Below are positions 20,812 to 63,880 of a stretch of DNA of 64,000 nucleotides, in pieces; the stretch's first letter is position 1, and every line of letters starts with the position of its first letter. The notes under the pieces were generated by a model. The model searched no databases and had not been told where the DNA came from. It worked only from the letters and a program-made list of their open reading frames with translations. The position numbers and the translations under genes are program-made. This DNA comes from Allobosea sp. Leaf344 (GTDB taxonomy: Bacteria > Pseudomonadota > Alphaproteobacteria > Rhizobiales > Beijerinckiaceae), in contig NZ_LMRT01000001.1 in assembly GCF_001426225.1 (NCBI RefSeq), forward strand, positions 276,648 through 340,647, read 5' to 3'.

Positions 20812-20964
20812 TCAGTTTTCCTTGATGGAGAGGCCGTTCTTGCCGACCGAGATTTCGACGCCCTCGGGCTGCTTCTTCTCTTCATAGAGCGCATAGCCGG
20901 TCACGGCGAGGCCGCCGACGAGAAGGATGACGAGGCCGACAAGGAGGTTGCGGGACGCGAGCAT
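20812..20964 (-). CDS. 50-residue single-pass membrane protein
   Basis: The ATG at 20964 opens MLASRNLLVGLVILLVGGLA, a signal-anchor or signal peptide of about 20 hydrophobic residues, then a short charged tail (ALYEEKKQPEGVEISVGKNG) ending KEN. CAGGA lies upstream. No function is recognised; similar small proteins are widespread in Rhizobiales. An exact GGAAC-N16-CGTT promoter (21032-21008) precedes it at an ideal distance, which supports both its reality and stress induction. Confidence 0.75.
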   Translation of the reverse strand: MLASRNLLVGLVILLVGGLAVTGYALYEEKKQPEGVEISVGKNGLSIKEN

Positions 20965-21007
20965 GGGATGTCCTGAGATGCCGTCGCGTCAGGCGCGACG
21001 CGCAGAC

Positions 21008-21032
21008 AACGCAGTCCCCGCCCAGCGGTTCC
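21008..21032 (-). promoter_or_regulatory. EcfG-type general stress promoter (GGAAC-N16-CGTT)
   Basis: On the minus strand GGAAC (21032-21028) is separated by 16 bp from CGTT (21011-21008). The pattern equals the alphaproteobacterial EcfG sigma consensus and lies 43 bp upstream of the small membrane protein ATG. Confidence 0.75.
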
Positions 21033-21043
21033 GCTGCGGTGCA

Positions 21044-21460
21044 TCATTCTGCTGCGACGCCGAACCAGCGTGTCGCGATATAGAGCCCGCCGGCGGCGCT
21101 GACGGCGGTCAGGACCGTGCCCCAGGCCAGATCGGTCAGCGCCACCGAGACCGGAAACCCGCGCAGCGTCGAGAGATTGGTGATGTCGTAGGTGCCATAG
21201 GCGAGGACGCCGAGCCCTGCCCCCGCCAGCAGCGCGGCGAGAACGCTGCCGCTCGCCAGATTGGGGAGGATCGCGAACCAGGCGATGCCGGCGACATAGA
21301 CGAGGTAGAACAACGCGGCGATGCCGAGCCGCGGCTCGGGCAGCAGCAGATCCCCCATGCGGGCGACATAGAATTCGCGGGCCACATATTTCAGCCAGAG
21401 CAGGTCGAGCGGGAACAGGATCAGCGCCGTCGCAGCGTAGATCAGCAGGAAACGCGTCAT
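21044..21460 (-). CDS. DUF2177 family membrane protein
   Basis: 138 residues with about four transmembrane helices: residues 3-22, 45-66, 70-90 and 112-132. The motif PLDLLWLKYVAREFY near the N-terminus and GTYDITNLSTLRGFP are typical of DUF2177, a family without known function. Its ATG overlaps the PAP2 stop by 4 bp (ATGA), so it is the last gene of an operon with a lipid kinase-like protein and a phosphatase and may act in the envelope. Also GC-typical and without a signal peptide. Confidence 0.85.
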   Translation of the reverse strand: MTRFLLIYAATALILFPLDLLWLKYVAREFYVARMGDLLLPEPRLGIAALFYLVYVAGIAWFAILPNLASGSVLAALLAGAGLGVLAYGTYDITNLSTLRGFPVSVALTDLAWGTVLTAVSAAGGLYIATRWFGVAAE

Positions 21461-22173
21461 GCGGGCTCGTCCTTCGGCTCCGGCGGCACGGAACCGCCCA
21501 GCCTGTCTACGTGGCCCTGCTCGTCCCGGATCTCCTGGCTGACCATGCTGCGGCCGAGCCAGGCGACGGAGAGGCTGGCCCAGGTCATTCCGAGCAGCCA
21601 GCCGGCCAAAACGTCCGTCGGCCAGTGCACGCCGAGATAGACCCGGCTCGCCCCGATCAGGACGATGACGCTCCAGGCTATCACGTAGCAGAGCCTGGTG
21701 ATGTGCCGGCGCTTCACCGCCAGGCCGACGAAACCCGCGATGCAGAGCAGCGTCACCGCCGAGAGAAAGGCGTGCCCGCTCGGGAAGCTCGCGGTGAAGG
21801 TCAGCGCGGCATGCTCCACGATGTCCGGCCGCTCGCGGCCGATCAGGATCTTCAGCCAGGTGCTGGCCAGGGTCGCCGCCAGCACGCTGACCAGCAGCCC
21901 GACCGCCAGGCGCGGATGGCGGCATTGCCACAGCACGAGGCTCGCGGTGATCATCATCAGCCCCAGCCCGGTGAAGCTGCCGAGCGCCGTGACGTCCCGC
22001 ACCGCCTCCCGCAGCCAGAGCGGGCCGATCGGCATGGAGGGATTGCCGGTCTCGCGCAGCATCAGCACGAGCCCGGTGTCGAAGGCGAAGCTGTTGCCGG
22101 TGGCGATGAAGATCGCCAGGCCGAGAAATCCGCAGGCCGCGGCGAGCGGCAGGAGAAAGCGTCGCGAGGCCAT
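21457..22173 (-). CDS. PAP2-superfamily phosphatase (membrane lipid phosphatase)
   Basis: 238 residues, six membrane helices. It has all three PAP2 motifs: K-x6-RP (KILIGRERPD), PSGH (SFPSGHAF, catalytic His) and SR-x5-H-x3-D (SRVYLGVHWPTD). Such enzymes dephosphorylate phosphatidate, undecaprenyl pyrophosphate or related lipids on the periplasmic side. It follows the diacylglycerol kinase-like gene by 2 bp, suggesting opposing lipid phosphorylation and dephosphorylation, but the lipid is not evident. Confidence 0.92.
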   Translation of the reverse strand: MASRRFLLPLAAACGFLGLAIFIATGNSFAFDTGLVLMLRETGNPSMPIGPLWLREAVRDVTALGSFTGLGLMMITASLVLWQCRHPRLAVGLLVSVLAATLASTWLKILIGRERPDIVEHAALTFTASFPSGHAFLSAVTLLCIAGFVGLAVKRRHITRLCYVIAWSVIVLIGASRVYLGVHWPTDVLAGWLLGMTWASLSVAWLGRSMVSQEIRDEQGHVDRLGGSVPPEPKDEPA

Positions 22174-22175
22174 GG

Positions 22176-23075
22176 CTAGAGGTTAGGCTCCCGGGCGGCG
22201 ATGACCGTCACGGCGCGGGGCAGCAGCCGGTAGGAGAGCGCCCCGCCGCGGCGCTCGACCTCGCCGTCGAAGGTGATGTGCCCGCGGCGCTTGTCGCGCC
22301 GGCGCAAGGTCACCTCCGGCGTGGTGAAGGAGACGAGCTCGGGCGAGTCGCGCCAGCCGCCGGTCACCACCGAAAGCGCGGCCTTGCAGCGCGACCAGAG
22401 CCCGCCGGCATTGAGGATGTGGACTTCGAAGACCCCGCCGGCGAGATCGCTGCGCCGCCATTCAGCGCCGTCGAAGCTGTTGATGGTGACGAGGACGGCG
22501 TCGGCCTCGACCTGGCGGCGCTCATCCTCCACCAGGATCTCGACGGTGATCGCGCGGGTGAACAGGATCGAGCGCACGCTGGCGACCAGGAACGCCGCGG
22601 CCCGGCTGAAGGGGAAGCGCCGGCGGGCATGCTCCCGCTCGCGTGCCATCAGGCTGAAGAAGCCCATGCCGGACAGGGAGTGGAACATCTGGTCATTGAC
22701 CCGGCCGATATCCAGCTCGACCGGACGGCCGGTGCAGAGCGCCTCGATCTGCCGCTCCAGCGTGCCGTAGAGCCCGAGATCGCGGCCGAGCACGTTGACC
22801 GTTCCCAGCGGGAGGATGCCGACCGGGCGGTGCGCCTCGAGCAGGATGGGCAGGACGCCGTTGATCGTGCCGTCGCCGCCGGCGATGACGGGGACGGCGT
22901 CCTGATCGGCGATGGCCAGCGCCAGGGCCGAGTGCAGCTCCTTGGGGCTGACCAGCCTTACGTCTGCGGTGCAACCATGGCTGGCGAAAGCCTCGGCCAC
23001 CCGGGTCGCGAAGGCGGCCTGCCCGAGCTCCAGCACGGTTCCGGCACGCGCATTGACGACGATGACGTGGCGCAT
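22176..23075 (-). CDS. diacylglycerol/lipid kinase family protein
   Basis: 299 residues of the DAGK catalytic family. VNARAGT and the glycine-rich nucleotide loop AGGDGTINGVL followed by LPLGTVNVLGRDLG are diagnostic. The C-terminal half is the beta-rich lipid-binding domain, including HITFDGEVERR. I take ATG 23075 (product MRHVIVVNARAG); the upstream in-frame extension is unrelated. First of the DGK-PAP2-DUF2177 set and 34 bp downstream of a transglutaminase-like gene. Likely phosphorylates diacylglycerol or a related lipid at the membrane. Confidence 0.9.
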   Translation of the reverse strand: MRHVIVVNARAGTVLELGQAAFATRVAEAFASHGCTADVRLVSPKELHSALALAIADQDAVPVIAGGDGTINGVLPILLEAHRPVGILPLGTVNVLGRDLGLYGTLERQIEALCTGRPVELDIGRVNDQMFHSLSGMGFFSLMAREREHARRRFPFSRAAAFLVASVRSILFTRAITVEILVEDERRQVEADAVLVTINSFDGAEWRRSDLAGGVFEVHILNAGGLWSRCKAALSVVTGGWRDSPELVSFTTPEVTLRRRDKRRGHITFDGEVERRGGALSYRLLPRAVTVIAAREPNL

Positions 23076-23109
23076 TTTGTGGTGCCGAACTCGCTTGTAA
23101 GCATTGAAA

Positions 23110-24000: not shown

Positions 24001-24101
24001 GGATGTTCTCCCGGACCAGTCGCTCCCTTCAGCGGGCGACCATGAGATTTCGCCCGTCTGGGCATTTAGGCGGTGAAATCGAGGCGCGTTCGCGACGTCC
24101 T

Positions 24102-24138: not shown

Positions 24139-24200
24139 TCGCCGTCACGACGATTCGGCTGGGGGGATAGCAACCGCCGCGACCTGCTTCGGGCACGGCC

Positions 24201-24590
24201 TCACATCCAATAGGGCATCGTGCCGTAATAATCGTGGACGCGCGTGCCGTAGCCGCGATCGTTCCAGTCTGGCTCGCCGGCGCTGTCATACATCGGCGCC
24301 GCCTCGAGCTTGTCCTTGGTCAGCGGCACGACATAGCCACCGCGCTGGGTGTCGTAGTCGAGCACGCTCCACGGCACCGGATGGTATTTTTCGCCGATGC
24401 CGAGAAAGCCACCGAACGACATGATGGCGTAGGCGACCTTGCCGGTGCGCTTGTCGAGCATCACGTCGTAGATTTCGCCAAGATGCTCGCCGGCGGTGTT
24501 GTAGACGTCCGTTCCGGCCACACGCGCCCCGGCGATCAGCGGGTTCGGCGAGCTGGTCATGGTCTGACCCGTCATGGTCTGAGCTGTCAT
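24201..24590 (-). CDS. PRC-barrel domain protein
   Basis: 129 residues. After an N-terminal TMTGQTMTSS stretch the PRC-barrel fold covers residues ~20-100 (VYNTAGEHLGEIYDVMLDKRTGKVAYA, PVPWSVLDYD). PRC-barrel proteins of this alphaproteobacterial type are small, soluble, often stress-induced and of unknown role. GAGGAGA precedes the ATG at 24590. An exact GGAAC-N16-CGTT promoter lies upstream, and the gene ends in a strong terminator, so it is a single-gene stress unit. Confidence 0.9.
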   Translation of the reverse strand: MTAQTMTGQTMTSSPNPLIAGARVAGTDVYNTAGEHLGEIYDVMLDKRTGKVAYAIMSFGGFLGIGEKYHPVPWSVLDYDTQRGGYVVPLTKDKLEAAPMYDSAGEPDWNDRGYGTRVHDYYGTMPYWM

Positions 24591-24636
24591 AGCGGTCTCC
24601 TCATGAGGCGGCGTTTCCACCGCCTGGTCCCCGATC

Positions 24637-24661
24637 AACGTGATGCCGCTCGCAAGGTTCC
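24637..24661 (-). promoter_or_regulatory. EcfG-type promoter of the PRC-barrel gene
   Basis: Minus-strand GGAAC (24661-24657), 16-bp spacer, CGTT (24640-24637): an exact consensus, 46 bp before the ATG. Confidence 0.8.
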
Positions 24662-24747: not shown

Positions 24748-24772
24748 GGAACTTTCGCGACGGCAAGCTGTT
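24748..24772 (+). promoter_or_regulatory. EcfG-like promoter of the glycine-zipper lipoprotein gene
   Basis: GGAAC (24748-24752), 16-bp spacer, TGTT (24769-24772), one mismatch in the -10; 51 bp before the ATG at 24824 and divergent from the PRC-barrel promoter. Confidence 0.55.
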
Positions 24773-24823: not shown

Positions 24824-25087
24824 ATGAAGAAGTTCATCATCGTCGCCGCAATGGCCGCCTCGCTCGGCGCCTGCACCCAGCGCGAACAGAATGCCGGCAC
24901 CGGGGCGCTGATCGGCGCCGGCACGGGCGCCGTGATCGGCGGCCTCGCCACCGGACGCGCCGGCGGTGCTCTGGCTGGTGCTGCGATCGGCGGCGCCGGC
25001 GGCGCGATCATCGGCTCGGCCGCGACGCCCGACCGGATCTGCTACGGCCGCGACGAATATGGCCGCCGCGTTCGCTACTCCTGCTGA
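24824..25087 (+). CDS. glycine-zipper lipoprotein
   Basis: 87 residues. MKKFIIVAAMAASLGAC is a lipoprotein signal with lipobox LGAC (Cys17). The body has repeated GxxxG runs (GALIGAGTGAVIGGLATG, GGALAGAAIGGAGGAI), a glycine-zipper membrane-associated domain, and the short tail DRICYGRDEYGRRVRYSC holds two further cysteines. AAGGAGAG precedes the ATG. Likely an outer-membrane-associated stress lipoprotein; exact role unknown. It ends in a strong terminator. Confidence 0.88.
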   Translation: MKKFIIVAAMAASLGACTQREQNAGTGALIGAGTGAVIGGLATGRAGGALAGAAIGGAGGAIIGSAATPDRICYGRDEYGRRVRYSC

Positions 25088-47466: not shown

Positions 47467-48714
47467 TCACGAGGCCGGCCGGTCTAGCCGGTCGATGTGA
47501 CGCCTGATGTCGGCAGCCTCGGCTGCCGACCCTGCCAGCGCGATGGCGCGGTTGAACGCCTCGCGCGCTTCCGCGGCCCGGCCGCATTGGCCGAGAAAGG
47601 CGCCGCGCGCCCCGTGGAAATAGAAATATCCCGAGAGCCGGCCCGCGAGAGGCTCGATCAGCGCGAGTCCGGCCTCGGGCCCTTCGAGCTTGGCCACCGC
47701 CACCGCCCGGTTCAAGGTCACCACCGGCGAGGGCTGCATGCGTTCCAGCGCCGCATAGAGCTGCGCGATGCCGGCCCAATCCGTCGCCTCCGCCCGCTCC
47801 GCCCGCGCATGCAGCGCCGCGATCGCTGCCTGGATCTGATAGGGCCCGGGACGCTGGTGGCGCAGCGCCTTGTCGACCAGGGCCAGGGCCTCGTCGATCG
47901 CCGCCCTGTCCCAGAGCGAGCGGTCCTGGTCCTCCAGGCTGACGGCCTGGCCCTGAGCATCGAAGCGGGCGCGCAGCCGCGATTGCTGCAGCAGCATCAG
48001 CGCCAGCAGCGCCAGGATCTCCGGCTCGGCCGGGAAGAGCCGCACCAGCAGCCTCGTCAGGCGGATCGCTTCCTCGGACAGGGCCGCGCGGGCGCTCGCC
48101 ATGGCCGAGCCGGCGGTATAGCCCTCGTTGAACAGCAGATAGAGCATGGCGGCGACGGCACCCAGCCGCTCGGCCCGCTCGATCGCGCCCGGCGTCTCGA
48201 AGCCGATGCCGCCCTGTCCGATCCGCGCCTTGGCCCTTGTGATGCGCTGTTCCATGGCGCTCTCGCCGACCAGGAAGGCGCGCGCGATCTCGGCCACCGA
48301 AAGCCCCGAGACGATGCGCAAGGCGAGCGCCACCTGCTGCGTCGCCGGCAGATCGGGGTGGCAGCAGATGAACATCAGCCGGAGGATATCGTCGCGATAG
48401 GCGGCGCCGTCGAGCCGCTCGACCGTCTCGGCCTCGGCATCGCCGGTCTCCGACAAAGCCTCCTCGGGCGGCAGCGCCGTCTCGCGCCGCGTCCGCCGCA
48501 GCAGGTCCACCGCCGCATTGCGACCGACGAAGATCAGCCAGGCGGCGGCGTCGCGCGGCGGCCCCTTCTCCGGCCAATGCCGCAGGGCGCGCAGGCTGGC
48601 CTCCTGGAAAGCCTCCTCCGCCAGTTCGATATCGCGGAAATGGCGCAGCAGCGCGCTCATCGCCTGAGGGCGGGCCGAGATCAATGCGGCGTGCAACCAG
48701 GCGAGATCGCTCAT
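47467..48714 (-). CDS. ECF sigma factor, ECF42-type with C-terminal TPR-like domain
   Basis: 415 residues, much longer than simple ECFs. Sigma2: ALLRHFRDIELAEEAFQEASLRALRHWPE; sigma4: PATQQVALALRIVSGLSVAEIARAFLVGESAMEQRITRAK. The long helical C-terminus (FNEGYTAGSA, DRSLWDRAAIDEAL, LNRAVAVAKLEGPEAGLALI) is characteristic of the ECF42 group, which uses this domain instead of an anti-sigma factor. ECF42 genes lie next to DGPF (YCII-like) genes, as here, 12 bp downstream of one. Confidence 0.9.
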   Translation of the reverse strand: MSDLAWLHAALISARPQAMSALLRHFRDIELAEEAFQEASLRALRHWPEKGPPRDAAAWLIFVGRNAAVDLLRRTRRETALPPEEALSETGDAEAETVERLDGAAYRDDILRLMFICCHPDLPATQQVALALRIVSGLSVAEIARAFLVGESAMEQRITRAKARIGQGGIGFETPGAIERAERLGAVAAMLYLLFNEGYTAGSAMASARAALSEEAIRLTRLLVRLFPAEPEILALLALMLLQQSRLRARFDAQGQAVSLEDQDRSLWDRAAIDEALALVDKALRHQRPGPYQIQAAIAALHARAERAEATDWAGIAQLYAALERMQPSPVVTLNRAVAVAKLEGPEAGLALIEPLAGRLSGYFYFHGARGAFLGQCGRAAEAREAFNRAIALAGSAAEAADIRRHIDRLDRPAS

Positions 48715-48726
48715 CGCCAGCCCCCA

Positions 48727-49107
48727 TCAACCCTGCTGCAGGCTCGGCGGAACCGGGTTCAGCACGGCGATCGGCCGGATCTCGAAGGCGCCGCCGGAGC
48801 CGCAGGCCTGCGCCATCTCGCGGGCGGTCTCGATCGCCTCCTCGAGCGAGGCGCAATCCACGACGAAGAACCCGAGAAGCTGCTCCTTGGTCTCGGCGAA
48901 GGGCCCGTCCAGCACCACCGCCTCGGCCCCCTTGCGAAGCGTCACGGCGGCGGTCGTCGGCATCAGCCGCGCTACCGGGCCGAGCTTGCCTTGCGCCGCC
49001 AGCTTCTGCTGGACCGCGGCGAGATCGGCCATCACCGCCGCCTCCTTCTCCTTCGGCCAGGCGCAGACGGCGTCCTCGTTGTCGTAGCAGAGCATGGCGT
49101 AGAGCAT
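48727..49107 (-). CDS. YCII-related DGPF-domain protein
   Basis: 126 residues. VLDGPFAETKEQLLGFFVVDC contains the DGPF motif typical of proteins paired with ECF42 sigma factors; MLYAMLCYDNEDAV is the first strand of the ferredoxin-like fold. Function unknown; in studied systems DGPF genes are the direct targets of ECF42. The promoter candidate TGTCGG-N17-CGTC ends 24 bp before the ATG. Confidence 0.92.
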   Translation of the reverse strand: MLYAMLCYDNEDAVCAWPKEKEAAVMADLAAVQQKLAAQGKLGPVARLMPTTAAVTLRKGAEAVVLDGPFAETKEQLLGFFVVDCASLEEAIETAREMAQACGSGGAFEIRPIAVLNPVPPSLQQG

Positions 49108-50176: not shown

Positions 50177-50187
50177 TCGCCCGGCCG

Positions 50188-50212
50188 GGAACTCCCGCGC
50201 TCCACCCGCGTC
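50188..50212 (+). promoter_or_regulatory. EcfG-like promoter of the DUF1236 gene
   Basis: GGAAC (50188-50192), 16-bp spacer, CGTC (50209-50212), one mismatch to CGTT; 35 bp before the ATG. The -35 lies within an 11-bp inverted repeat (50186-50196 with 50224-50234) that could form a leader hairpin. Confidence 0.5.
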
Positions 50213-50247
50213 TTAAGGCCGGGGGGAGTTCCCGATAGGAGACGACC

Positions 50248-50559
50248 ATGAAGATGCTTGTTCTCGCTGCCGGCGCCGTGTTGCTGAGCGCTCCCGCCCT
50301 CGCCCAGAGCAGCACGACGACCACCACCACCATCACCACCGAGCAGACCGGCAAGGTCCGCTCCTATGTGATGAAGGAGAAGCCGGAATCGGTGAAGATC
50401 ACCAAGGAGGTCTCGGTCGGCGCCGAGCTGCCCAACGAGGTGCAGCTGCGGACGCTGCCGGCCGATGTCGGCGTATCCGAGTACAGCTACACCGTGGTGA
50501 ACGGCCAGACCGTGCTGGTCGAGCCGCGCACCCGCAAGATCGTCAAGATCATCGAGTGA
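50248..50559 (+). CDS. DUF1236 periplasmic protein
   Basis: 103 residues. MKMLVLAAGAVLLSAPALAQ is a Sec signal, followed by a Thr/Ser-rich stretch (SSTTTTTTITTEQ) and one DUF1236 domain with EYSYTVVNGQTVLVEPRTRKIV. DUF1236 proteins are small secreted proteins of Rhizobiales without known function. Preceded by an EcfG-like promoter, so probably stress-induced. Confidence 0.9.
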   Translation: MKMLVLAAGAVLLSAPALAQSSTTTTTTITTEQTGKVRSYVMKEKPESVKITKEVSVGAELPNEVQLRTLPADVGVSEYSYTVVNGQTVLVEPRTRKIVKIIE

Positions 50560-53185: not shown

Positions 53186-53782
53186 TCAGATCTGGCCGGT
53201 ACGGCCATAGGGCATGCGGTCGCGCGGATAGGGCTCGGCCGCCGGGTCGAAGCCGGACCAGCCCTCGCGACGCCACTCGTCGCGATGGGTCGAGACGTCG
53301 AGGCTGGCGCCGGCGTCGAGAGCCGTCGCCGCCCGCTGTTCCGACATCTCGTCGGTGCGGACCGAGACGAGCGAGCCGCCGCGGCGGACGCTCTCGGCAT
53401 AGGTCTCGGCATCCTCCCGCGACATGCCGGTCTCGGTCATGGCGCCGATCAGGCCGCCGGCCGCGCCACCGACGATGGCGCCTGTCGCCGCTCCGGCCGC
53501 CGTCGAGGCGAGCCAGCCGGCCGCGACCACCGGACCGATGCCGGGGATCGCCATCAGGCCGAGCCCGGCCAGCAGGCCGGCGCCGGCGCCGAGAGCCCCG
53601 CCGACAGCGGCGCCGCCGGCGGCGTCATCGGCGACCTCGCTGTCGGTCCCGGGCTCGCCACGGGCGTGCTGGTGACCGATCAGGCTGATCTGGGTGTCGG
53701 AGAATCCGGCTTCCTTCAGGCGGCGAACGGCCGCTTCCGCATCGGAATAACGGTCATAGACACGGGTAATGGTACGGTTCAT
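53186..53782 (-). CDS. general stress protein with YflT-like domain and glycine-zipper core
   Basis: 198 residues. N-terminal TRVYDRYSDAEAAVRRLKEAGF is the YflT (heat-induced stress) domain start. A Gly/Ala-rich GxxxG core (~residues 55-115) follows, perhaps membrane-inserting, then a second ferredoxin-like part (EDAETYAESVRRGGSLVSVRT) and a charged tail. Found 11 bp after a secreted protein gene on the same strand. Widespread in alphaproteobacteria near stress genes, with no known activity. Confidence 0.87.
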   Translation of the reverse strand: MNRTITRVYDRYSDAEAAVRRLKEAGFSDTQISLIGHQHARGEPGTDSEVADDAAGGAAVGGALGAGAGLLAGLGLMAIPGIGPVVAAGWLASTAAGAATGAIVGGAAGGLIGAMTETGMSREDAETYAESVRRGGSLVSVRTDEMSEQRAATALDAGASLDVSTHRDEWRREGWSGFDPAAEPYPRDRMPYGRTGQI

Positions 53783-53793
53783 GGCGAGGGATC

Positions 53794-54099
53794 CTAATTG
53801 CTGATGGAGATGTTGCCGCGGTAATCCACCGCGACGTTGCGCATGGCACCGTCCTTTTCGGCCTGGCCACGCCAGATACCGTCCTCGCCCTTGGCCAGTT
53901 TGCCGGGGTTGCCGTAGCCATTGTCACGGAGGCGGGCACGGGCCTGTTCCTCGGTGAAGCTGTTGGCGCCGGGCAGAGGCGCCTGTCCATCGACGCCGGG
54001 ACGCGGCGAGGGGAGCGGCGAGGTGGTGCTCGTCTGGGCGAGAACGCCGGGTGCGAGCAGGATGCTCGCCAGGCCTGCCGCAAGTATTGTGGTCTTCAT
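53794..54099 (-). CDS. secreted PepSY-like small protein
   Basis: 101 residues. MKTTILAAGLASILLAPGVL then AQ is a Sec signal. A Pro/Ser-rich segment and a C-terminal module follow (SFTEEQARARLRDNGYGN, GIWRGQAEKDG, VAVDYRGNIS) with the look of a PepSY-type fold. GGAGGTCACG precedes the ATG. The promoter candidate at 54153-54129 and the 11-bp spacing to the YflT gene make a two-gene stress operon. Function unknown. Confidence 0.82.
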   Translation of the reverse strand: MKTTILAAGLASILLAPGVLAQTSTTSPLPSPRPGVDGQAPLPGANSFTEEQARARLRDNGYGNPGKLAKGEDGIWRGQAEKDGAMRNVAVDYRGNISISN

Positions 54100-54128: not shown

Positions 54129-54153
54129 AACCGCCCGGACTCGCAGGAGTTCC
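54129..54153 (-). promoter_or_regulatory. EcfG-like promoter of the PepSY-like/YflT operon
   Basis: Minus strand GGAAC (54153-54149), 16-bp spacer, GGTT (54132-54129), one mismatch to CGTT; 29 bp before the ATG. Confidence 0.55.
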
Positions 54154-54228: not shown

Positions 54229-54253
54229 GGAACCAGAGCCGAGCCGGCATGTT
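54229..54253 (+). promoter_or_regulatory. EcfG-like promoter of the alpha/beta-hydrolase gene
   Basis: GGAAC (54229-54233), 16-bp spacer, TGTT (54250-54253); 29 bp before the ATG at 54283 and divergent from the site at 54153-54129. Confidence 0.5.
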
Positions 54254-54282: not shown

Positions 54283-55254
54283 ATGAGCAGGACCGACAGC
54301 CCGAGCCCCGCCATGCCCAAGCTGCCGCCCGCCGTCGAGGGTGCGGTCAGCGAGATCGATTTCCAGGCGCATCGGCTGCGGCTCTACCAGAACGGGTCCG
54401 GCGCTCCGCTGCTCCTGCTGCACAGCATCAATGCGGCGGCATCGGTCTATGAGGTGCGCCCGATCTTCCACCACATGGCGCGGCATCGGCAGGTCTTCGC
54501 GCTCGACCTGCCCGGCTTCGGCGGCTCCTCGCGCCTGCGCGACGACTACACCATCGCGTTCTATACGCGCGCCGTCATCGCCGCGGCGGAGCATGTCCGG
54601 CAGATCGCGGGGAGCGGGCCGATCGCCGTGCTCGGCCTGTCGCTGACCTGCGAATTCATCGCCCGCGCGGCGCTGGCCCGCCCGGACCTCTTCGCGCAGC
54701 TGATCTTCGTCACGCCGACGGGTTTCGAACATGGCGCGCAGAAGCGGCGCGCCGGCGGGGCGCAGGGTCGTGCGATACCGGGGCTGGAGGCGGCGCTGAC
54801 GGTCGGCCTCTGGCGCGATGCCCTCTACAAGGCGCTGGTCAGCCGGCCCAGCATCCGGTTTTTCCTGAAGCGCACCTTCGGCTCCAGCGACGTCGATCCC
54901 GGCCTGATCGACTATGCCCATGCCAGCGCGCACCAGCCCGACGCCGCCTTCGCGCCCCTCGCCTTCGCCTCGGGGAAACTATTCTCCGGCGATGTGCGGA
55001 CGCTGTACGAGGCGCTGCGGCTGCCGGTCTGGCTGGCGCATGGCACCAAGGGCGCCTTCGCCGATTTCGCCCAGGCGGGCTGGGTGGAGCAGCGGGAGAA
55101 TTGGCGCCGCAGCGCCTTCGACACCGGCGCCTTTCCGCATTTCCAGGCACCGGAGCGCTTCTTCGCCGAACTCGAAACCGTGCTGGCGGACAGCGCGCGC
55201 ACTGATGAATCACCCGGCCGCGCGACGCTGCGAATGGTGGGCGGAACCGGCTGA
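54283..55254 (+). CDS. alpha/beta-fold hydrolase
   Basis: 323 residues. Oxyanion segment LLLLHSINAAAS, LDLPGFGGS, nucleophile elbow VLGLSLTCEF with Ser120 and Thr in place of the final Gly of GxSxG. The usual acid position after strand 7 (AHGTKGAFADF) has Ala where related proteins have Asp, so the acid may be displaced; His appears in FPHFQAPERF. GGAG 8 bp before the ATG. An EcfG-like promoter precedes it. Substrate unknown; possibly an esterase or a stress-linked hydrolase. Confidence 0.83.
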   Translation: MSRTDSPSPAMPKLPPAVEGAVSEIDFQAHRLRLYQNGSGAPLLLLHSINAAASVYEVRPIFHHMARHRQVFALDLPGFGGSSRLRDDYTIAFYTRAVIAAAEHVRQIAGSGPIAVLGLSLTCEFIARAALARPDLFAQLIFVTPTGFEHGAQKRRAGGAQGRAIPGLEAALTVGLWRDALYKALVSRPSIRFFLKRTFGSSDVDPGLIDYAHASAHQPDAAFAPLAFASGKLFSGDVRTLYEALRLPVWLAHGTKGAFADFAQAGWVEQRENWRRSAFDTGAFPHFQAPERFFAELETVLADSARTDESPGRATLRMVGGTG

Positions 55255-55325
55255 GGCGACGCAACTCTTGCCCGACACCGGCGTTGCAGGGGCATGTGCG
55301 GCTGGGACAACAGCAGGAGAACGCC

Positions 55326-55850
55326 ATGAACCGACGCCAGACCCTGAGCGCCCTCAGCCTCGCCGCGATCGCGGCACCGAGCTTCGCTCTCGCCCAGGCC
55401 AGTGACCAGAACCGCCCCTCCGCCGCGGAGGGCGAGCACATCACCGCCACTCTCGACGCCGGAAAGATGACGCTGGAGGCCAGCCGCGTCGCGCTGTCGA
55501 AAGCGACCGATCCGGCGATCAAGCGCTTCGCGCAGCTCGAGGCCGCGGAACAGGAAACCATCGCCGAAGTGTTCTCGAGCCGCGTCGAGCGCTCGCAGAA
55601 CGCGCCGCCCAAGGTCGATGCCGATGCCAAATCCGCTATCGACAGCGTCCACGCCCAGCAGGCCGGGCCGGCCTTCGACAAGGCCTATCTCGCCGGGCAG
55701 ATGGAGGGGCATCGCAAGCTGCTCGCGATCCAGGAGGCCTATCTCTCCAATGGCCGCGATCCGCGCCAGCGCGGTCTCGCCATGCTGATGCGCGGGCATA
55801 TCAAGGAGCACATCCTCGAGCTGGAAGTGCTGCAGAAGGACATGGCGTAA
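55326..55850 (+). CDS. DUF4142 family secreted protein
   Basis: 174 residues. MNRRQTLSALSLAAIAAPSF then ALAQ is a Tat-like/Sec signal (RR near the N-terminus, uncommon for this family). The remainder is helical DUF4142: EGEHITATLDAGKMTLEASRVAL, AIKRFAQLEAAEQETIAEVF, ending HIKEHILELEVLQKDMA. DUF4142 proteins are periplasmic, ferritin-like helical bundles without proven activity. AGGAGAA precedes the ATG; next gene starts 5 bp downstream. Confidence 0.88.
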   Translation: MNRRQTLSALSLAAIAAPSFALAQASDQNRPSAAEGEHITATLDAGKMTLEASRVALSKATDPAIKRFAQLEAAEQETIAEVFSSRVERSQNAPPKVDADAKSAIDSVHAQQAGPAFDKAYLAGQMEGHRKLLAIQEAYLSNGRDPRQRGLAMLMRGHIKEHILELEVLQKDMA

Positions 55851-56401: not shown

Positions 56402-56426
56402 GGAACCCCTCGGGCCAAAGGCCGTT
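56402..56426 (+). promoter_or_regulatory. EcfG-type promoter of the SnoaL/NTF2-like gene
   Basis: GGAAC (56402-56406), 16-bp spacer, CGTT (56423-56426): exact consensus, 24 bp before the ATG. A small stem (CCCGAGG/CCTCGGG) covers the -35 and may also end the pncC transcript. Confidence 0.78.
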
Positions 56427-56450: not shown

Positions 56451-56819
56451 ATGGAAGATCAGCAGATCTGGGATTTCGAAGAAGGACTTTGGACCGGCGA
56501 TGCCGATCATTACCGCGAGCTGATCGATCAGGACTGCCTGATGGTGCTTCCCGCCCCGCCCTTCGTCTTCACCGGTTCGGAGGCGATCGCCGCCGTCTCG
56601 GATACGCCTCGCTGGAGCAGCGTCGCGCTGTCGGAGAAATCGGTGACCCGGCCGCAGGAGGGGCTGATCGTGATCGCCTACAAGGCCGAGGCTCGCAAGG
56701 ACGATGACGAGAGCTACAGCGCGCATTGCACCTCCGTGCTGCGGCGGCTGGATCACGGAAAATGGCGCGTGGTGCAGCATCAGCAGACGCCGCCGATGAT
56801 CGCGCCGGCGAAAAGCTGA
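56451..56819 (+). CDS. DUF4440/NTF2-like small protein
   Basis: 122 residues of the SnoaL/DUF4440 cone fold: IWDFEEGLWTGDADHYREL, DQDCLMVLPAPPFVFTGSEAI, CTSVLRRLDHGKWRVVQHQQT. The fold supports binding or light catalysis of small hydrophobic ligands; here the role is unknown. AGGGAAAGGGAG upstream of the ATG. Preceded by an exact EcfG-type promoter, so stress-induced is likely. Confidence 0.88.
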   Translation: MEDQQIWDFEEGLWTGDADHYRELIDQDCLMVLPAPPFVFTGSEAIAAVSDTPRWSSVALSEKSVTRPQEGLIVIAYKAEARKDDDESYSAHCTSVLRRLDHGKWRVVQHQQTPPMIAPAKS

Positions 56820-57016: not shown

Positions 57017-57376
57017 ATGCTGAATGACAAGGCCATCCTGGTCGTCGAAGACGAGCCCATGATCGCCATGATGCTGGATGATTTCCTCACCGATCTCGGC
57101 TGCCGGGTCATCGGCCCGGCCGGGAATCTCGGTCAGGCGCATGAGCTGTTGAACGCGCATGGTTGCGACGCGGCCATCGTCGATTTGAACCTGAACGGCA
57201 CGATGGCGCAGCCTCTGATCGAGATCCTTCGCAAGCAGGGCGTCCCGGTCATCGTCGCGAGCGGCTATGGCAGCGCCACTTCGGGCCTGCCGGACGGGTG
57301 CCGCGTGGTCGCGAAACCCTATGCGATCCAGCATGTCGAGGAGGCGCTGCGCGCCTGTTTCAGCGACCGACCCTGA
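57017..57376 (+). CDS. single-domain response regulator
   Basis: 119 residues, only a receiver domain. Acid pocket Glu11-Asp12-Glu13 (VVEDEP), phosphoacceptor Asp56 (AAIVDLNLNG), Ser82 (IVASGYG) and Lys100 (VVAKPYA). No output domain, so it acts as a phosphate relay or sink. It converges on the hybrid histidine kinase gene with a 20-bp gap, which suggests that this kinase is its partner. Confidence 0.93.
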   Translation: MLNDKAILVVEDEPMIAMMLDDFLTDLGCRVIGPAGNLGQAHELLNAHGCDAAIVDLNLNGTMAQPLIEILRKQGVPVIVASGYGSATSGLPDGCRVVAKPYAIQHVEEALRACFSDRP

Positions 57377-57396
57377 GGGCCCGGCGGGACGCTGGC

Positions 57397-60345
57397 TCAG
57401 CTCTCATCCTGTCGCACCCGCCGCTTGCCGCGTATCGCCATACGCAGGATGCGCGAGAGATCCTCGACGGCGTAAGGCTTCTGCAGCAGCTCGAAGCCAT
57501 GCCGCCCCTCCTCCGCGAGGACGTGGCTGTATCCGGAGGTGAGGACGACGGGCAGGCCGGGGTGTCGCCGCCTGATCTCCAGACCGAGTTCGACCCCGCT
57601 GATCCCCGGCATCACCACATCCGAGAAGACGGCGTCGAAGCCGTCGGTCTCGGACAGGAGCCGCAGCGCCTCGTCGCCATTGGCGGCCCAGGTCGTGACG
57701 TAGCCGAGATCGCCGAGAAGCTGCGTCGAGAAGGTGCCGACATCGACATTGTCCTCGACGACCAGGATCCGCTGGCCGCCGCCGCCGCTGATCACGCCCG
57801 GCCGGGAGGGCTCGGCATCGCCCGGCTGGAGCGCCTCGCGTTCGACGCGCGGCAGATAGAGGGTGAAGCGTGAACCGGAGCCGAGCTCGCTGTCGACGTC
57901 GATATCCCCGCCGGATTGTTTGGCGAAGCCGAACACCTGCGAGAGCCCGAGGCCCGTCCCCTTGCCGACACCCTTGGTGGTGTAGAAAGGCTCGAAGATC
58001 TGCATGAGCTTTTCCGAGGGGATGCCGGCGCCGGTATCCTCCAGCGACACGGCGACGAATGCCCCCGTTCCGCCGGCATGGCCGCGAATCGGCGGCATGC
58101 GCTCCAGTTTCTCGACCGAGATCGTCAGCCGGCCCTCGCCATCCATCGCGTCGCGGGCATTCACCGCCATGTTGACGAGCGCGGTCTCGAACTGGCTGAC
58201 ATCCGCCTCGACGAAGCAATCCTCCGCCCGCACGTCGGAGACGATCTCGATGCGCGCTCCGACGATGCTGCGCAGCATTTCGGTGACCGCGCTGACCCGC
58301 ACCGAGGGGTCGAAGATCTCGGGCTTCAGCGGCTGTCGACGGGCGAAGGCCAGGAGCTGCCCGGTCAGTTTCGCGGCCCGGTCGACCGTGTCGGAGATGG
58401 CGTCGACATAGCGCCGCCGCCTGTCCTCCGCGAGGTTGGGCTTGCGCAGCAGATCGGTGGAGCTCTTGATGATCGTCAGCAGGTTGTTGAAATCATGGGC
58501 GACACCGCCCGTCAGCTGGCCGACGGCCTCCATCTTCTGCGCCTGGCGCAGCGCTTCCTCGGCCTTGGCCCGCTCCGCCACCTCATCCGCGACGCGGCGC
58601 TCCAGCGTATCGTTGAGGTCCCGGATGCGCTCCTCGATCGCCTTGCGCTCCGTGACGTCGACGGCCGTGCCGAGCAGGCGCACGCAGCGATCATCGACGA
58701 AGACACCACGGCCTTTCGCCGCCACCCAGCGGATGATCCCGTCATCCCTGCCGATCGTCCGGTATTCGACATCGTAGAGCGCCCGGCGTGCCGGATCGGC
58801 CGCTCCGGCATAGGCGGCGGCGGTGGCCTCGCGGTCGTCCGGATGGAGCCCGTCGTAGAAATCCCGCATCGACACGCTGACATCGGGCGAGATCCCGAAC
58901 ATCGCCTTCACATTCGGCGGCCAGATCAGCTTGTCCTCGATCGGGTCGACGTCCCAGAAGCCGATATCGGCGTGCTCGATCGCCAGCCGCAGACGCTCTT
59001 CGCTCTCGCGCAGGCGCGCCTCTGCACCGACCCGCTCGACATGGGACCAGCAGCGCTCGGCGACGGTCCCGACGAGGTCGAGCTCATCCTCCTGCCAGTC
59101 CCGCGGCTGATCCTGATGCACCGCCATCATCGCCGCCAGACGCCCGGCCTTCACCAGCGGGCAGCAGATGATCGCGCGGATCCCGATCGCCTCGAACATC
59201 TCGCGGCCTTCGCCGGGGGGAAGCTCGGCGCCGACGTCGCGGATGACGAGCATCTGCCCGCCGCGCATGGCGGAAGCGGCCTTCGCCCCGAAGAGATCGA
59301 GGCTGTAGGTCCCGGCCGAGGATGCGACACCGGGCGCCACGTAATCATTGCGGATGACGAAGCCGTCATTGTCGTCATCGACATCGGCATAGGCGCAGCG
59401 CGAGGCGCCCAGCCGTCGCGCCAGGATCGTGGCGGCCGCCAGCATCGCCTCCTCAGCATCGGCGGAATTGCGCATCGCCTCGTCGAGGTCGCCCAGCAGA
59501 CGCAGCCTGGCCTCGCTCTTCCGGAGCGCCTCCTCCACGCCCTTGCGCCGGGTGATGTCGGAGGAGATGCCGGCAATGCGCAAGGCCGTGCCGTCCGCGG
59601 CGTAATCCGGCCGGCCGCGGACGGCGATCCAGCGCGTCTCGCCGGTCTCCGGCAGCACCACCCGATACTCCGTCTCGTAATCCTCGCGCGCGGTGACGGC
59701 TCGCCGGACCGCTTCCGAGCGCGGGGCGCGATCGTCCGGATGAATGAGCCGGCTCAGCTCCGCATTGGTGAAGGGCGCGCCTGGCGCCAGCCCGAAGCTC
59801 GCTTTGTAGAGGTCCGAAGCGGTCAGGGTGAAATCCTTGAGATCGAGCTCCCAGGCGCCCATGCCGCCGGCTTCCAGGGCGAAGCGCAGGCGCTCCTCCC
59901 CCGCACGGAGGGCTTCCAGCCGCGCCCGCGCCTCATATTGTCGCCGCCTGCCCCGGATCGCCGCGCTGACGAGGCTGACGAGCGTGGTCGGGTGGAAGGG
60001 GCGCTCGATGAAGGAGGCGTTGCCCAGCACGTCGAGATAACGGCGCGCGGCCGGGTTCCGCTCGATCCCACCGCCCTGGCTGGTCAGGACGATGAAGGGC
60101 ATGTCCGACCATTCCGGCTGTCCGGCGATCCACCTGGCCAGCGGGTGCAGATCCGCCGTCGTCAGCGCCTCCTCCGTGAGCAGGACGAGGCCGGCGCCGG
60201 CGTCGAGTTCGGCGAGAACCCGGGGCAGCGAGGGGATGGCCTCGGCCGCCATCCCGGCTTCGCCGAGCATCGCGACGGCGATGGCCGCGTCCCGGCCGCG
60301 GGGTGCCAGGACGAGGACGCGCTCCGAAAGCGTCGAGCGTTTCAC
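57397..60345 (-). CDS. hybrid sensor histidine kinase (pseudo-REC, PAS, GAF, PAS, HisKA, HATPase, REC)
   Basis: 982 residues, no membrane segments, so cytoplasmic. Residues 1-130 look like a receiver without the phosphoacceptor Asp (VLLTEEAL). PAS ~150-270, GAF ~285-435, PAS ~445-570, coiled segment, HisKA with His617 ([11 protein letters not shown]), N-box NARDAMD, G-boxes DTGAGIP and [10 protein letters not shown], then a full receiver with Asp909 (VFSDVVMPG). Its ATG overlaps the stop of the upstream KaiC-like gene (ATGA), tying the kinase to KaiC output. The signal is unknown; PAS/GAF suggest light, redox or small molecule sensing. Confidence 0.92.
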
Positions 60346-61832
60346 GGGTCTGCGGCCCGCATCACCTGCGCGCCATCGTCGACCAGCGTCGGCACGCCGC
60401 GCAGCACCCCCTGGAAATTGACCAGCGGCTCGCCCAGCGTGATCCCGCGGCCGTCGATGCGGAACTCGCGGATCGTGTCCTCATGCGCGCCCGTGCGCTT
60501 CTTGACGACGGAGATCGCACGCCGGACCCGGCCCAGCGCCTCGAAATAGCGCAGGAGGATCACGGTGTCGGCGAGATAGGTCACGTCGACCGGCGATTTC
60601 ATGTCGCCGACGAGCCCGTGCTGGGCCACCGTGAGGAAGGTGGTGGCGCCCTGCCTGTTGAGATATTGCAGCAATTCGTGGATGTGCAGGACCAGCGCCT
60701 GCTCATGCGGCATGGCCGCCTGATAGCCGTTGAGGCTGTCCACGACCACCGTCTTGACCCGATGCGCCTCGACCGAGCGGCGCACGCGTTCGGTGAATTC
60801 CCCGGGGCTCAGCTCCGCGGCGTCGACCTGCTCCACGAACAGGCTGCCCCCGTCGATCATGCCCTGTAGGTCGATGCCGAGATTTTTCGCCCGGTCGAAC
60901 AGCAGCCCGAGCTCCTCGTCGAAGACGAAGAGCGCCGCCTTCTCGCCGCGACCCACGGCCCCCTGGATGAAGGTGAGGGTCAACAGCGATTTGCCCGTAC
61001 CCGCGGGGCCGAGGATCAGAACGCTCGATCCGCGCTCGACACCGCCGCCCAGAAGCGCGTCCAGCTCCGGCAGATCGCTCGTGACGACGTCCCGCGCAAT
61101 CCGCGTCTTGTGCTCCGCCGAGACCAGGCGCGGGAAGACGCGAACGCCGCCGGTGAGGATGGCGAAGTCGTGGTAGCCGCCGCGATAGCGCCGCCCGCGA
61201 TATTTGCCGACGCGCAGGCGCCGCCGGTCGCCGCCATATTCGGGCGATGTCTCCTCCAGCCGGATCACCCCATGGGCGACGCTGTGGACGGTCTTGTCGT
61301 TGACGTCGGTGGTGAGGTCGTCGAGCATCAGCACCGTCGCGCCCTGCTTGGCGAAATAATGCTTCAGAGCCAGGATCTGGCGCCGGTAGCGCAGCGAGCT
61401 CTGCGCGAGCAGCCGGATCTCGGACAGGCTGTCGAGGACGACGCGATCGGGCTTCGCCCGCTCGAAGGCCTCGAAGATGCGCTTGGTCGTCTCTCCCAAT
61501 TCGAGGTCGGAGGAGTACAGCAGGCTCTGCTGCTGGTCCTCGTCGAGCAAGGTCTCGGGCGGGACGAGTTCGAAGATGTCGATGCCGGTGAGATCCCAGC
61601 CATGCGAGGTCGCGCCGGCGCGCAGCTCCTCCTCCGTCTCGGCGAGGGTGATGTAGAGCGAACGCTCGCCCGCGCGCGCACCGGCGATCAGGAACTGGAT
61701 CGAGACCGTCGTCTTGCCCGTCCCCGGATTGCCTTCCAGCAGGAAGAGACGGCGTCGCTCCAGCCCTCCGCCGAGCACGTCATCCAGCCCGACGACGCCG
61801 GTCATGGCCTGACTGTCCAACTGCTTCGTCAC
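60342..61832 (-). CDS. KaiC-like double-RecA ATPase
   Basis: 496 residues with two RecA domains: CI Walker A GNPGTGKTT (34-42) and CII Walker A GPAGTGKSL. The catalytic Glu pair is AE in CI (ITLAETEEE) and DE in CII (VFDEELGLL). The KaiC Ser/Thr phosphosite segment reads VTYLADTVILLRYFE, so Ser-Thr becomes Thr-Tyr. I start at GTG 61832 (product MTKQLDSQAMTGVVG), which has GAGG at good spacing; ATG 61880 and GTG 61904 further upstream lack a binding site. Operon with the hybrid kinase, no kaiB. Likely a KaiC homologue in stress or light signalling rather than a full clock. Confidence 0.9.
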   Translation of the reverse strand: MTKQLDSQAMTGVVGLDDVLGGGLERRRLFLLEGNPGTGKTTVSIQFLIAGARAGERSLYITLAETEEELRAGATSHGWDLTGIDIFELVPPETLLDEDQQQSLLYSSDLELGETTKRIFEAFERAKPDRVVLDSLSEIRLLAQSSLRYRRQILALKHYFAKQGATVLMLDDLTTDVNDKTVHSVAHGVIRLEETSPEYGGDRRRLRVGKYRGRRYRGGYHDFAILTGGVRVFPRLVSAEHKTRIARDVVTSDLPELDALLGGGVERGSSVLILGPAGTGKSLLTLTFIQGAVGRGEKAALFVFDEELGLLFDRAKNLGIDLQGMIDGGSLFVEQVDAAELSPGEFTERVRRSVEAHRVKTVVVDSLNGYQAAMPHEQALVLHIHELLQYLNRQGATTFLTVAQHGLVGDMKSPVDVTYLADTVILLRYFEALGRVRRAISVVKKRTGAHEDTIREFRIDGRGITLGEPLVNFQGVLRGVPTLVDDGAQVMRAADP

Positions 61833-61988
61833 GCGGGGCCTCGCATCGATCCAGAACGTCTTACCGAACGAAGCAACCATAAATATGTTGCGCCGGCAGA
61901 ACACGCTTTTTCGAGAGCGATGCTCTTGCTGCGTATGGGCCGGCGCCGTTGTTTGCGCATCGGCCGAAATGTGTGGTGGCGCGGATCG

Positions 61989-62513
61989 TCAGAGCATGCG
62001 GCGCAGCAGATGGCGCTTGCCGCTGGCTCGATGAGCCAAGGCGAAGGATGCGTGGCCGAGCGCGAGCGCGAGCAGGGCGAAGCCCAGCCAATAGTGCAGG
62101 AGATCGGCGGGTGCCTCGAGCCAGGCGATCCGCTCGGATCGCCCCGGCATGACGCGCAGGCCGAAGACCGAGAAAGGCTTGCCCGAGCCGAACTGGCGCA
62201 GCAGGGCGATCGCGGGAATGAAGAGCATCAGCCCGTAGAGCAGGGCGTGGCCGAAGCCCGCGGCGCGGTCCGCCAGCCCGTGGCGTATCGGTCGGCGCTC
62301 GCGGTTGATGAGCGCCCAGCCGGCCCGAAGGATCACCAGGACGAACAGCACCGCACCGAGCTCCAGATGCCGGCCGCCGACGAAGCGCGTCACGGCCGTG
62401 TCGCCGATGCCGACATAGAGCAGCGCGCCGGCAAATTGCCAGAAGAGCAGCAGCGCCATCAGCCAATGCAGGAAGCGGCTCACCAGGCCGTAGGATTCGG
62501 CCGTATCGCGCAA
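61989..62513 (-). CDS. cytochrome b561 family protein
   Basis: 174 residues, four membrane helices with heme-ligand histidines in SRFLHWLMALLLFW, GGRHLELGAV and LLHYWLGFALL. Family members move electrons from quinol in the inner membrane. It lies 156 bp downstream of the KaiC-like gene on the same strand. No partner cytochrome or YceI-type gene is adjacent. Confidence 0.9.
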   Translation of the reverse strand: MRDTAESYGLVSRFLHWLMALLLFWQFAGALLYVGIGDTAVTRFVGGRHLELGAVLFVLVILRAGWALINRERRPIRHGLADRAAGFGHALLYGLMLFIPAIALLRQFGSGKPFSVFGLRVMPGRSERIAWLEAPADLLHYWLGFALLALALGHASFALAHRASGKRHLLRRML

Positions 62514-62644
62514 TCGTGAAATCGGCCCTCTCCTCCGGTGTTCATCCGGCGCTCTCGCCGCTTTTTCAGGTTGTTCCCGAATATAGCGCGCGATCGGCCC
62601 GCGATCAGGTCTTCATGTGCTCCGTCGCGACCAACCCACCAGCT

Positions 62645-62669
62645 GGAACATCCAGGGGCGGAGGCTGTT
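62645..62669 (+). promoter_or_regulatory. EcfG-like promoter of the GT4 gene
   Basis: GGAAC (62645-62649), 16-bp spacer, TGTT (62666-62669); 50 bp before the ATG at 62720. One mismatch in the -10. Confidence 0.5.
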
Positions 62670-62719
62670 GCAATTTCCGTCCGCCATGGCGGGCATTTGT
62701 CACCCACTTCGCCAACGCG

Positions 62720-63880
62720 ATGTCGGTCGGGCGGGTCGAGCCGGTGTCGAGCGCGCCGGATCGCCGGTCGCAAGACACGCCTGCACGATCGGAGCGACCG
62801 TTGCGTATTGGTATCATCGCTCATCTCAAACATGCCATCCGCGAGCCCTTCGCCGGCGGGCTCGAAATGCACACCGCGCAATTGCAGGCGCTGCTGCGCA
62901 GCCGCGGCCATGAGGTCACGCTGTTCGCCTCGCTGCGCTCCGAGCCGGAAGAGCATGTCGAGGCGATCTGCGAGGAGACCTCGCTCGCCGATGTCGGCTG
63001 CGACGAAGCGCCGGACAAGGCCTTCTTCCTCGAGCACCACGCCTATCTCTCGCTGATGAACGGGCTGCGGCACCGCGACTTCGACATCATCCACAATAAC
63101 TCGCTGCATTACCTGCCGGTCGCGATGGCGGACGTCCTGCCGATGCCGATGGTGACGACGCTGCATACCCCGCCCTTCGCCTGGCTCGAAAGCGGGGTGC
63201 GGCTGTGCAAGGCGCCGCATGCGAGCTTCGTGGCGGTCTCGGACTCGATCAGGCGGTCCTGGGGGCGGATCGCACCGATCGAGCATGTCGTGATGAACGG
63301 CATCGATCTCGACCGCTTCGCCTTCGCGGCCGCCCCGGCGCCGGAGCCCTATCTCGTCTGGTACGGGCGCATCGTCCCCGAAAAGGGTCTGCACCATGCG
63401 ATCGCGGCGGCGGCGCTGATCGGGGCGGCGCTGCATATCGCCGGGCCGATCTCCGACAGGGATTATTTCGACCAGATGATCGCGCCGCGGCTGAGCGGCA
63501 GGATCCGCTATCTCGGCCATCTCTCGCATGGCGAGCTCGCCAGGGTCGTCGCCGGAGCGCGCGCCTTCCTGTGCACGCCCTGCTGGGAGGAGCCCTATGG
63601 GCTCGTCGTCGCCGAGGCGCTGGCCTGCGGCGTGCCGGTCGCGGCCTTCGCGCGCGGCGCCATCCCGGAACTGCTGACGGAGCGCTGCGGGGTCCTGGCG
63701 GCACCCGACGATCCGGCCTCGCTCGCCAGCGCGGCACTCGCCGCGCAGGCGCTCGACCGTCGCGATTGCCGGGCGCATGCGGCAAGCTTCTGCGATGCCG
63801 AGCGGATGATCGACGAGTACGAGACGCTCTATGCCGAGATGATCGCGGGGACGAAGCGCCCGGCGGCGCAGGCGGCCTGA
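62720..63880 (+). CDS. glycosyltransferase family 4 protein
   Basis: 386 residues of the GT-B fold. RIGIIAHLKHAIREPFAGGLEMHTA is the N-terminal donor-site start (GGLEMH typical of GT4), HNNSLHYLPVAMAD and TTLHTPPFAWLES follow, and the C-terminal EPYGLVVAEALACGVPVAAF is the E-x7-E nucleotide-sugar motif. ATG 62720 gives a short N-terminal leader; the open frame upstream is not family-like. The acceptor is unknown. It is followed at once by a GT2 gene, so an exopolysaccharide or glycan cluster probably continues to the right. Confidence 0.9.
   Translation: MSVGRVEPVSSAPDRRSQDTPARSERPLRIGIIAHLKHAIREPFAGGLEMHTAQLQALLRSRGHEVTLFASLRSEPEEHVEAICEETSLADVGCDEAPDKAFFLEHHAYLSLMNGLRHRDFDIIHNNSLHYLPVAMADVLPMPMVTTLHTPPFAWLESGVRLCKAPHASFVAVSDSIRRSWGRIAPIEHVVMNGIDLDRFAFAAAPAPEPYLVWYGRIVPEKGLHHAIAAAALIGAALHIAGPISDRDYFDQMIAPRLSGRIRYLGHLSHGELARVVAGARAFLCTPCWEEPYGLVVAEALACGVPVAAFARGAIPELLTERCGVLAAPDDPASLASAALAAQALDRRDCRAHAASFCDAERMIDEYETLYAEMIAGTKRPAAQAA

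Follow-up and report, generated by a model that had tools for sequence, protein, structure and literature searches.

What directs transcription of the small stress- and envelope-related genes spread along a 64,000-nucleotide stretch of the Allobosea sp. Leaf344 genome? The stretch (the window in what follows; G000:C1:276648-340647, 68.5% G+C, from a genome of 4.35 Mb in 15 contigs) carries a series of paired elements resembling GGAAC-N16-CGTT, a form associated with EcfG, the extracytoplasmic function (ECF) sigma factor of the general stress response (GSR). The comparisons described below indicate that the window is very probably part of the EcfG GSR regulon of a Bosea-group species, with most of these sites serving as EcfG (ECF15) promoters having a spacer of 16 or 17 bp (N16 or N17). 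Judged from sequence, the observation is confirmed and its interpretation supported, and the system to which the sites would belong is one already known.

Candidate promoters and their genes

An earlier note on this DNA listed eight GGAAC-N16 sites, and all eight are present at the coordinates it gave, three of them exact and five with one mismatch in the -10 word. Its further claim, that all eight lie 24-51 bp upstream of a start codon, holds for seven by our gene calls and is uncertain for 62645+, which lies 50 bp from an ATG at 62720 and 131 bp from the caller-preferred start at 62801. Gene starts here and below are those of a simple gene caller of our own, except for plasmid pNBC550, for which the incomplete PLSDB gene table was used. 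When the window was searched with up to one mismatch, 13 sites were listed; the five additional ones (38022+, 51000+, 54391-, 55261+ and 61867-) have their mismatch in the -35 word and are missing from the earlier note because it demanded GGAAC. The eight sites, one of the five additional candidates and the genes that they precede are as follows, with distances measured from the end of the -10 word to the start codon unless otherwise given.

21008..21032, minus strand: EcfG-type promoter candidate, exact GGAAC-N16-CGTT, 43 bp before the gene of a 50-aa membrane protein
20812..20964, minus strand: 50-aa protein whose sequence shows a single hydrophobic stretch, unmatched in Pfam and NCBIfam
24637..24661, minus strand: EcfG-type promoter candidate, exact GGAAC-N16-CGTT, 46 bp before the PRC-barrel gene; this site and the one at 24748 are divergent
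24201..24590, minus strand: PRC-barrel protein (PF05239, E 6.7e-18)
24748..24772, plus strand: EcfG-type promoter candidate, GGAAC-N16-TGTT, 51 bp before the glycine-zipper gene
24824..25087, plus strand: glycine-zipper protein, 87 aa (PF13488, E 2.4e-07)
50188..50212, plus strand: probable weak or decayed EcfG-type promoter, GGAAC-N16-CGTC, ending 35 bp before the DUF1236 gene, its -35 beginning 60 bp before it
50248..50559, plus strand: DUF1236 protein (PF06823, E 4.5e-21)
54129..54153, minus strand: EcfG-type promoter candidate, GGAAC-N16-GGTT, 29 bp before the PepSY-like/YflT-like operon
53794..54099, minus strand: PepSY-like protein, 101 aa; no Pfam or NCBIfam match, but many of the listed plasmid relatives are annotated as PepSY domain-containing
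53186..53782, minus strand: YflT-like general stress protein (PF11181, E 1.8e-08), second gene of the presumed operon
54229..54253, plus strand: EcfG-type promoter candidate, GGAAC-N16-TGTT, 29 bp before the alpha/beta hydrolase gene
54283..55254, plus strand: alpha/beta hydrolase (PF00561, E 5.3e-13)
55261..55285, plus strand: candidate promoter GCAAC-N16-CGTT, 40 bp before the DUF4142 gene; absent from the earlier note
55326..55850, plus strand: DUF4142 protein (PF13628, E 1.5e-15)
56402..56426, plus strand: EcfG-type promoter candidate, exact GGAAC-N16-CGTT, 24 bp before the NTF2/SnoaL-like gene
56451..56819, plus strand: SnoaL/DUF4440 NTF2-like protein (PF14534, E 3.4e-08)
62645..62669, plus strand: GGAAC-N16-TGTT, an unproven candidate preceding a group 1 glycosyltransferase gene whose start codon is ambiguous, 62720 or 62801

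Spacing and placement of the elements

The constant 16-bp spacer had been offered as an argument against chance. Constancy alone proves nothing, because the sites were originally searched with a fixed spacer, but letting the spacer vary does favor N16. Within the window, GGAAC-N16-NGTT has seven matches, all seven of which lie outside called genes and at most 150 bp upstream of a same-strand start, versus none of the 11 matches found at the 12 other spacers from 10 to 22. Over the whole genome, exact GGAAC-Nx-CGTT occurs 60 times at N16 and 23 times at N17, compared with 126 occurrences, or ~11.5 each, at the other 11 spacers; the overall figure of 209 for N10 to N22 comes from one variable-gap search, in which overlapping matches were possibly counted otherwise than in fixed-gap searches. 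This genome-wide enrichment check had been named in advance as one that could refute the EcfG reading, and it did not do so.

Placement follows the same preference. Fifty of the 60 exact N16 sites are intergenic and three overlap the end of a gene; 41 of the 60, including these three, are not inside a called gene and lie no more than 150 bp from a same-strand start. On contig C1, which contains the window, 12 of 16 N16 and 6 of 7 N17 sites are placed upstream of genes, as against 1 of the 31 off-spacer matches examined there (the variable-gap search lists 40). Elsewhere in the genome, a sample of 20 stretches of 20 kb (400 kb) yielded GGAAC-Nx-NGTT matches that were both upstream and intergenic in 3 of 5 cases at N16, 3 of 6 at N17 and 4 of 35 at the other 11 spacers. 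The sites do not form the scattered regulon first described: the 60 exact sites cluster, with 14 neighboring gaps of at most 5 kb versus 4.0 expected, a result obtained in 0 of 2,000 simulations. As a consensus, GGAAC-N16-CGTT stands with regard to N16, but N17 is used too and the first base of the -10 word is nearly free, so that TGTT and GGTT count as ordinary variants, not defects.

The regulator locus and a proposed mechanism

The genome encodes NepR, EcfG and PhyR in one locus. NepR is encoded at C1:1064982-1065086 and scores above the Pfam cut-off for PF18557. Its neighbor EcfG is an ECF sigma factor whose closest solved chain is 5uxx, an RNA polymerase sigma factor (E 2.2e-56), and PhyR, also a nepR neighbor, matches 4g97 (E 8.4e-92) and 4qic, the latter named PhyR (E 2.2e-88), and exceeds the cut-off for NF006623. 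The nepR-ecfG genes are themselves preceded by an EcfG-type promoter, GGAAC-N16-CATT, and the same place is occupied by GGAAC-N16-CGTT in the relative G036 and by GGAAC-N16-TGTT in G011, two genomes chosen for the site clusters seen in their motif counts.

In the best-supported mechanism, stress would cause a sensor kinase to phosphorylate PhyR, and PhyR~P would capture the anti-sigma factor NepR. EcfG, once freed, would direct RNA polymerase to GGAAC-N16/17-NGTT promoters, and the small envelope, secreted and stress genes would then be transcribed. For this last step, transcription from the promoters, the support is the sequence evidence of the present analysis; phosphorylation, partner switching, EcfG dependence and the start sites are features that we infer from the family.

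Conservation upstream of the genes in relatives

Sixty genomes of the genus were searched for relatives of seven proteins encoded in the window, and up to 29 of the best loci per search were read for a footprint, defined as GSAAC-N16/17-NRTT within 220 bp upstream; the glycine-zipper gene was read within the PRC-barrel loci. Every one of the 29 loci carries the footprint for the 50-aa gene, for the PRC-barrel gene (17 N16, 12 N17) and for the PepSY-like gene (9 N16, 20 N17), as do 28 of 29 for the glycine-zipper gene. Counting its own, 51 of 61 genomes have a match to the 50-aa protein, weak in two of them. For DUF1236 the footprint was found in 27 of 29 loci, but in many of these the gene is a paralogue and the site is distant from its presumed start; of the nine closest relatives (57-67% identity), eight have GGAAC-N16/17-NGTT beginning 59-67 bp before the start. 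The alpha/beta hydrolase has one clear orthologue among the 60 relatives (L111, 50% identity), in which GGAAC-N16-CGTT begins 60 bp before the start. Other spacers from 9 to 23 occur in at most 5 of 29 of these regions, save N22 for PepSY.

Identity of the -35 and -10 words within the footprints is no evidence, because the search selected those words. Past its third base the spacer has an identity of only 27-48% between relatives, and recent kinship therefore does not explain the retention of the elements. Retention of the element while its flanks diverge is thus indicated by sequence for five window genes and for the lone orthologue of a sixth, and is doubtful for DUF4142. The genes at 20.8-25 kb are widespread in the genus; the hydrolase gene (54283) and the SnoaL gene (56451) hardly occur outside this genome. 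Taken together, regulator locus, spacer preference, placement and conservation support in substance the assignment of the GGAAC/CGTT sites to EcfG made in the earlier note.

Two elaborations of the motif were considered and rejected. Some sites overlap a GCAAC or GGAAC site on the opposite strand, and a bidirectional form, GGAAC-N16-NGTTCC, would allow the same promoter to be read on the other strand; CC or GC follows NGTT in 17% of the sites of this genome (n=47) and 9% of those of relatives (n=89), which is no enrichment. An extended -35, GGAACYTT, is absent from the set of this genome (n=47). It is clear in the relatives, where the second base after GGAAC is T with a frequency of 0.75 and the third with one of 0.60 (n=89), and is a property of those relatives' sets.

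Weighing the alternatives

Several results weigh against the EcfG reading or limit its reach. One is the NepR score, which falls below the NCBIfam NepR cut-off (30.3 vs 100 bits); the others are given here beside the alternatives. The alternative that survives best, and one that we take seriously without favoring it, is compatible with the EcfG explanation and narrows it: only the conserved subset (21008, 24637, 24748, 54129 and 54229) would work, and 50188, 55261, 56402 and 62645 would be decayed or accidental. The CGTC of 50188 lacks the GTT common to the searched variants, although its -35 stands where close relatives have theirs. For DUF4142, a GSAAC-N16/17-NRTT site was found in only two of the eight closest relatives and not in the other six, as against 15 of 19 more distant relatives (27 of 29 loci gave an alignment). 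The footprints do not extend to 62645, nor to 56402, whose SnoaL gene is without a relative at E 0.001 among the 60 genomes of the genus; 56402 is nevertheless an exact match, 24 bp upstream of its start. From the sequence comparisons, the sites at 21008, 24637, 24748 and 54129 would be graded as strong, those at 54229 and 56402 as good, and those at 50188, 55261 and 62645 as weak.

It is a good deal less likely, indeed improbable, that the sites, though genuine ECF promoters, serve a different ECF sigma factor, for instance an EcfG paralogue or another user of a GGAAC -35. Alphaproteobacteria commonly have EcfG paralogues (PMC3892343, PMC4814048), and one of these, if this genome has it, could be the factor that actually uses the sites. 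The window also encodes another ECF-type sigma factor, with a DUF6596 domain (47467-48714). Against this, GGAAC paired with CGTT or GTT at this spacing is the reported EcfG motif, given for Methylobacterium extorquens as GAAC-N16,17-C/GGTT (PMC4814048), and the nepR-ecfG operon itself carries it. EcfG paralogues described in Methylobacterium recognize similar promoters (PMC4814048), so that this alternative would hardly alter the EcfG reading.

The last alternative is chance: at 68.5% G+C, pairs of short words with a fixed spacing are frequent, and those near genes would have been picked out. The one-mismatch count in the window, 13 versus 7.85 in shuffles, is a weak excess, with at least 13 reached in 4 of 100 shuffles. 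Seven of the 60 exact genomic sites lie inside called genes, and some matches are therefore due to chance. No exact N16 site fell in the 400-kb sample, where ~5.5 would be expected if the 60 were evenly spread, and the N22 spacer occurs in 13 of 29 PepSY regions. The exact motif exceeds a reversed-word control in only 35 of 61 genomes, the control being larger in the remaining 26; this control is a poor null because its word content differs, and shifted spacers were used as the null instead. With no upstream placement among the 11 matches at other spacers in the window, N16 and N17 standing out genome-wide, and relatives' footprints at N16/17 with other spacers rare apart from N22 at PepSY, chance is highly improbable for the set as a whole, though it may account for 62645 and 55261.

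The PepSY-like/YflT-like pair and plasmids

The PepSY-like query matches 263 plasmid records in PLSDB, of which none covers 80% of the query; the C-terminal part is matched in most of the rows listed. The genera whose plasmids carry these relatives include Sinorhizobium, Agrobacterium, Rhizobium and Mesorhizobium. Nine of the 263 records were read (40 being listed). In all six of those with a gene table, a second gene follows PepSY, annotated as a general stress protein in four and as hypothetical in two; the three remaining records show no annotation over the match. GGAAC-N16-N[AG]TT stands upstream of PepSY in seven of the nine copies. The Microvirga copy has CATT, its -35 lying 117 bp before the assumed start, and the copies of Mesorhizobium terrae and Rhizobium etli 8C-3 are without the promoter. 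The other 11 spacers, with N16 and N17 left out, gave three matches in these nine regions. The stretch matching PepSY in Mesorhizobium sp. B1-1-8 is part of a longer gene that is annotated as DUF4142.

Plasmid pNBC550 of Bosea sp. NBC_00550 also carries a PepSY gene, and a 100-kb stretch chosen for its presence contains 16 upstream GGAAC-N16/17-NGTT sites versus 5 at the 11 other spacers. Contig C2 of the relative G039 (580,662 bases) has 18,165 bases identical to pNBC550. Two divergent Ku genes are also found on pNBC550 (L375 4705-6423), one of them preceded by an exact GGAAC-N16-CGTT whose end lies 31 bp from the start of the gene. No Bosea plasmid was among the best 40 of the 523 plasmid records matching EcfG, and the plasmid genes may therefore depend on a chromosomal factor.

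From these sequences the GSR regulon in Bosea and other Hyphomicrobiales could be modular, an idea to which we give even weight for and against: a chromosomal core would be joined by portable plasmid operons, such as the PepSY-like and YflT-like pair (53186-54099), each with its own EcfG promoter and plugging into the EcfG of the host. Movement between replicons is something that we infer. If the operon is portable, stress genes could join a regulon by way of their own promoter, with no regulator brought along. PepSY is not named among the matches listed in a search of open-licence PubMed Central literature on the GSR.

Neighboring genes and other observations

At 47467-49107, the DUF6596-domain sigma factor adjoins a same-strand gene of 126 aa, and the pair may be of the ECF42 type with its DGPF partner. 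At 57017-61880, a single-domain response regulator, a 982-aa PAS/GAF hybrid histidine kinase with a HisKA domain, and a two-domain KaiC-like ATPase lie side by side, possibly a signaling cluster beside the stress genes. The promoter region of the DUF1236 gene (50187-50233) contains a 10-bp inverted pair, GGGAACTCCC (50187-50196, including the -35) and GGGAGTTCCC (50224-50233), flanking the -10, which may form a hairpin or serve as an operator.

Six small genomes of the genus, of 3.2-3.9 Mb (G025, G030, G033, G040, G046 and G054) are without a close PRC-barrel orthologue and have few GGAAC-N16-CGTT sites, fewer than the reversed-word control; their stress regulon may be smaller or of another kind. 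G043 is also without the PRC-barrel orthologue, yet its motif count is not low like that of the other six.

Comparison with known EcfG systems

Among the matches listed in open-licence PubMed Central literature, no description of a GSR regulon in Bosea was found, and the word Bosea occurred only in a duckweed microbiome study. For a genus in which no published GSR regulon was found there, the present sites provide a list of EcfG targets open to test, with many small proteins of unknown function among them. Promoters in which GGAAC and GTT are kept and the first -10 base and the 16/17 spacer drift among relatives also form a natural series on the freedom that an ECF sigma factor allows.

The Pfam comparison covered 33 of the 41 genes that follow exact sites, three of them window genes. 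Their content includes Ku, an isoamylase/GlgX-like enzyme, a starch/glycogen synthase domain, DUF892, DUF3597, a Crp-like regulator, PRC-barrel and several small proteins without a match. It also includes a PNPOx-like protein, which corresponds to general stress protein 26. The EcfG target table of Sphingomonas melonis contains Ku, GlgX, DUF3597, PRC-barrel, a catabolite-activator-like protein and general stress protein 26 (PMC6599016), and the predicted regulon content resembles it. In Sphingopyxis granuli GSR promoters, GGAAC and GCAAC, the latter being the -35 of the candidate at 55261, are the -35 boxes found most often, and TGTT, CATT and GGTT are frequent alternatives to CGTT (PMC7083833).

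The Bosea-group genome shares with the known EcfG (ECF15) regulons (S. granuli, S. melonis, Rhizobium etli and M. extorquens) the adjacency of phyR, nepR and ecfG, the -35 GGAAC, and the -10 CGTT with TGTT, GGTT and CATT in use, as well as targets that include PRC-barrel, Ku and GlgX together with many proteins whose function is unknown. With S. granuli it further shares an EcfG-type promoter on nepR-ecfG. It differs from them in that the sites are clustered, and in that related promoters have N16 in some genomes and N17 in others of the same genus. By naming convention, SMa and SMb loci of Sinorhizobium meliloti are those of pSymA and pSymB. The genes dependent on RpoE2, an EcfG-type factor of that species, include SMa and SMb loci (PMC3616915), and targets on large plasmids are therefore not new. 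What distinguishes the present case from S. meliloti RpoE2 is the PepSY and YflT-like pair, found on plasmids of several genera with a promoter of its own.

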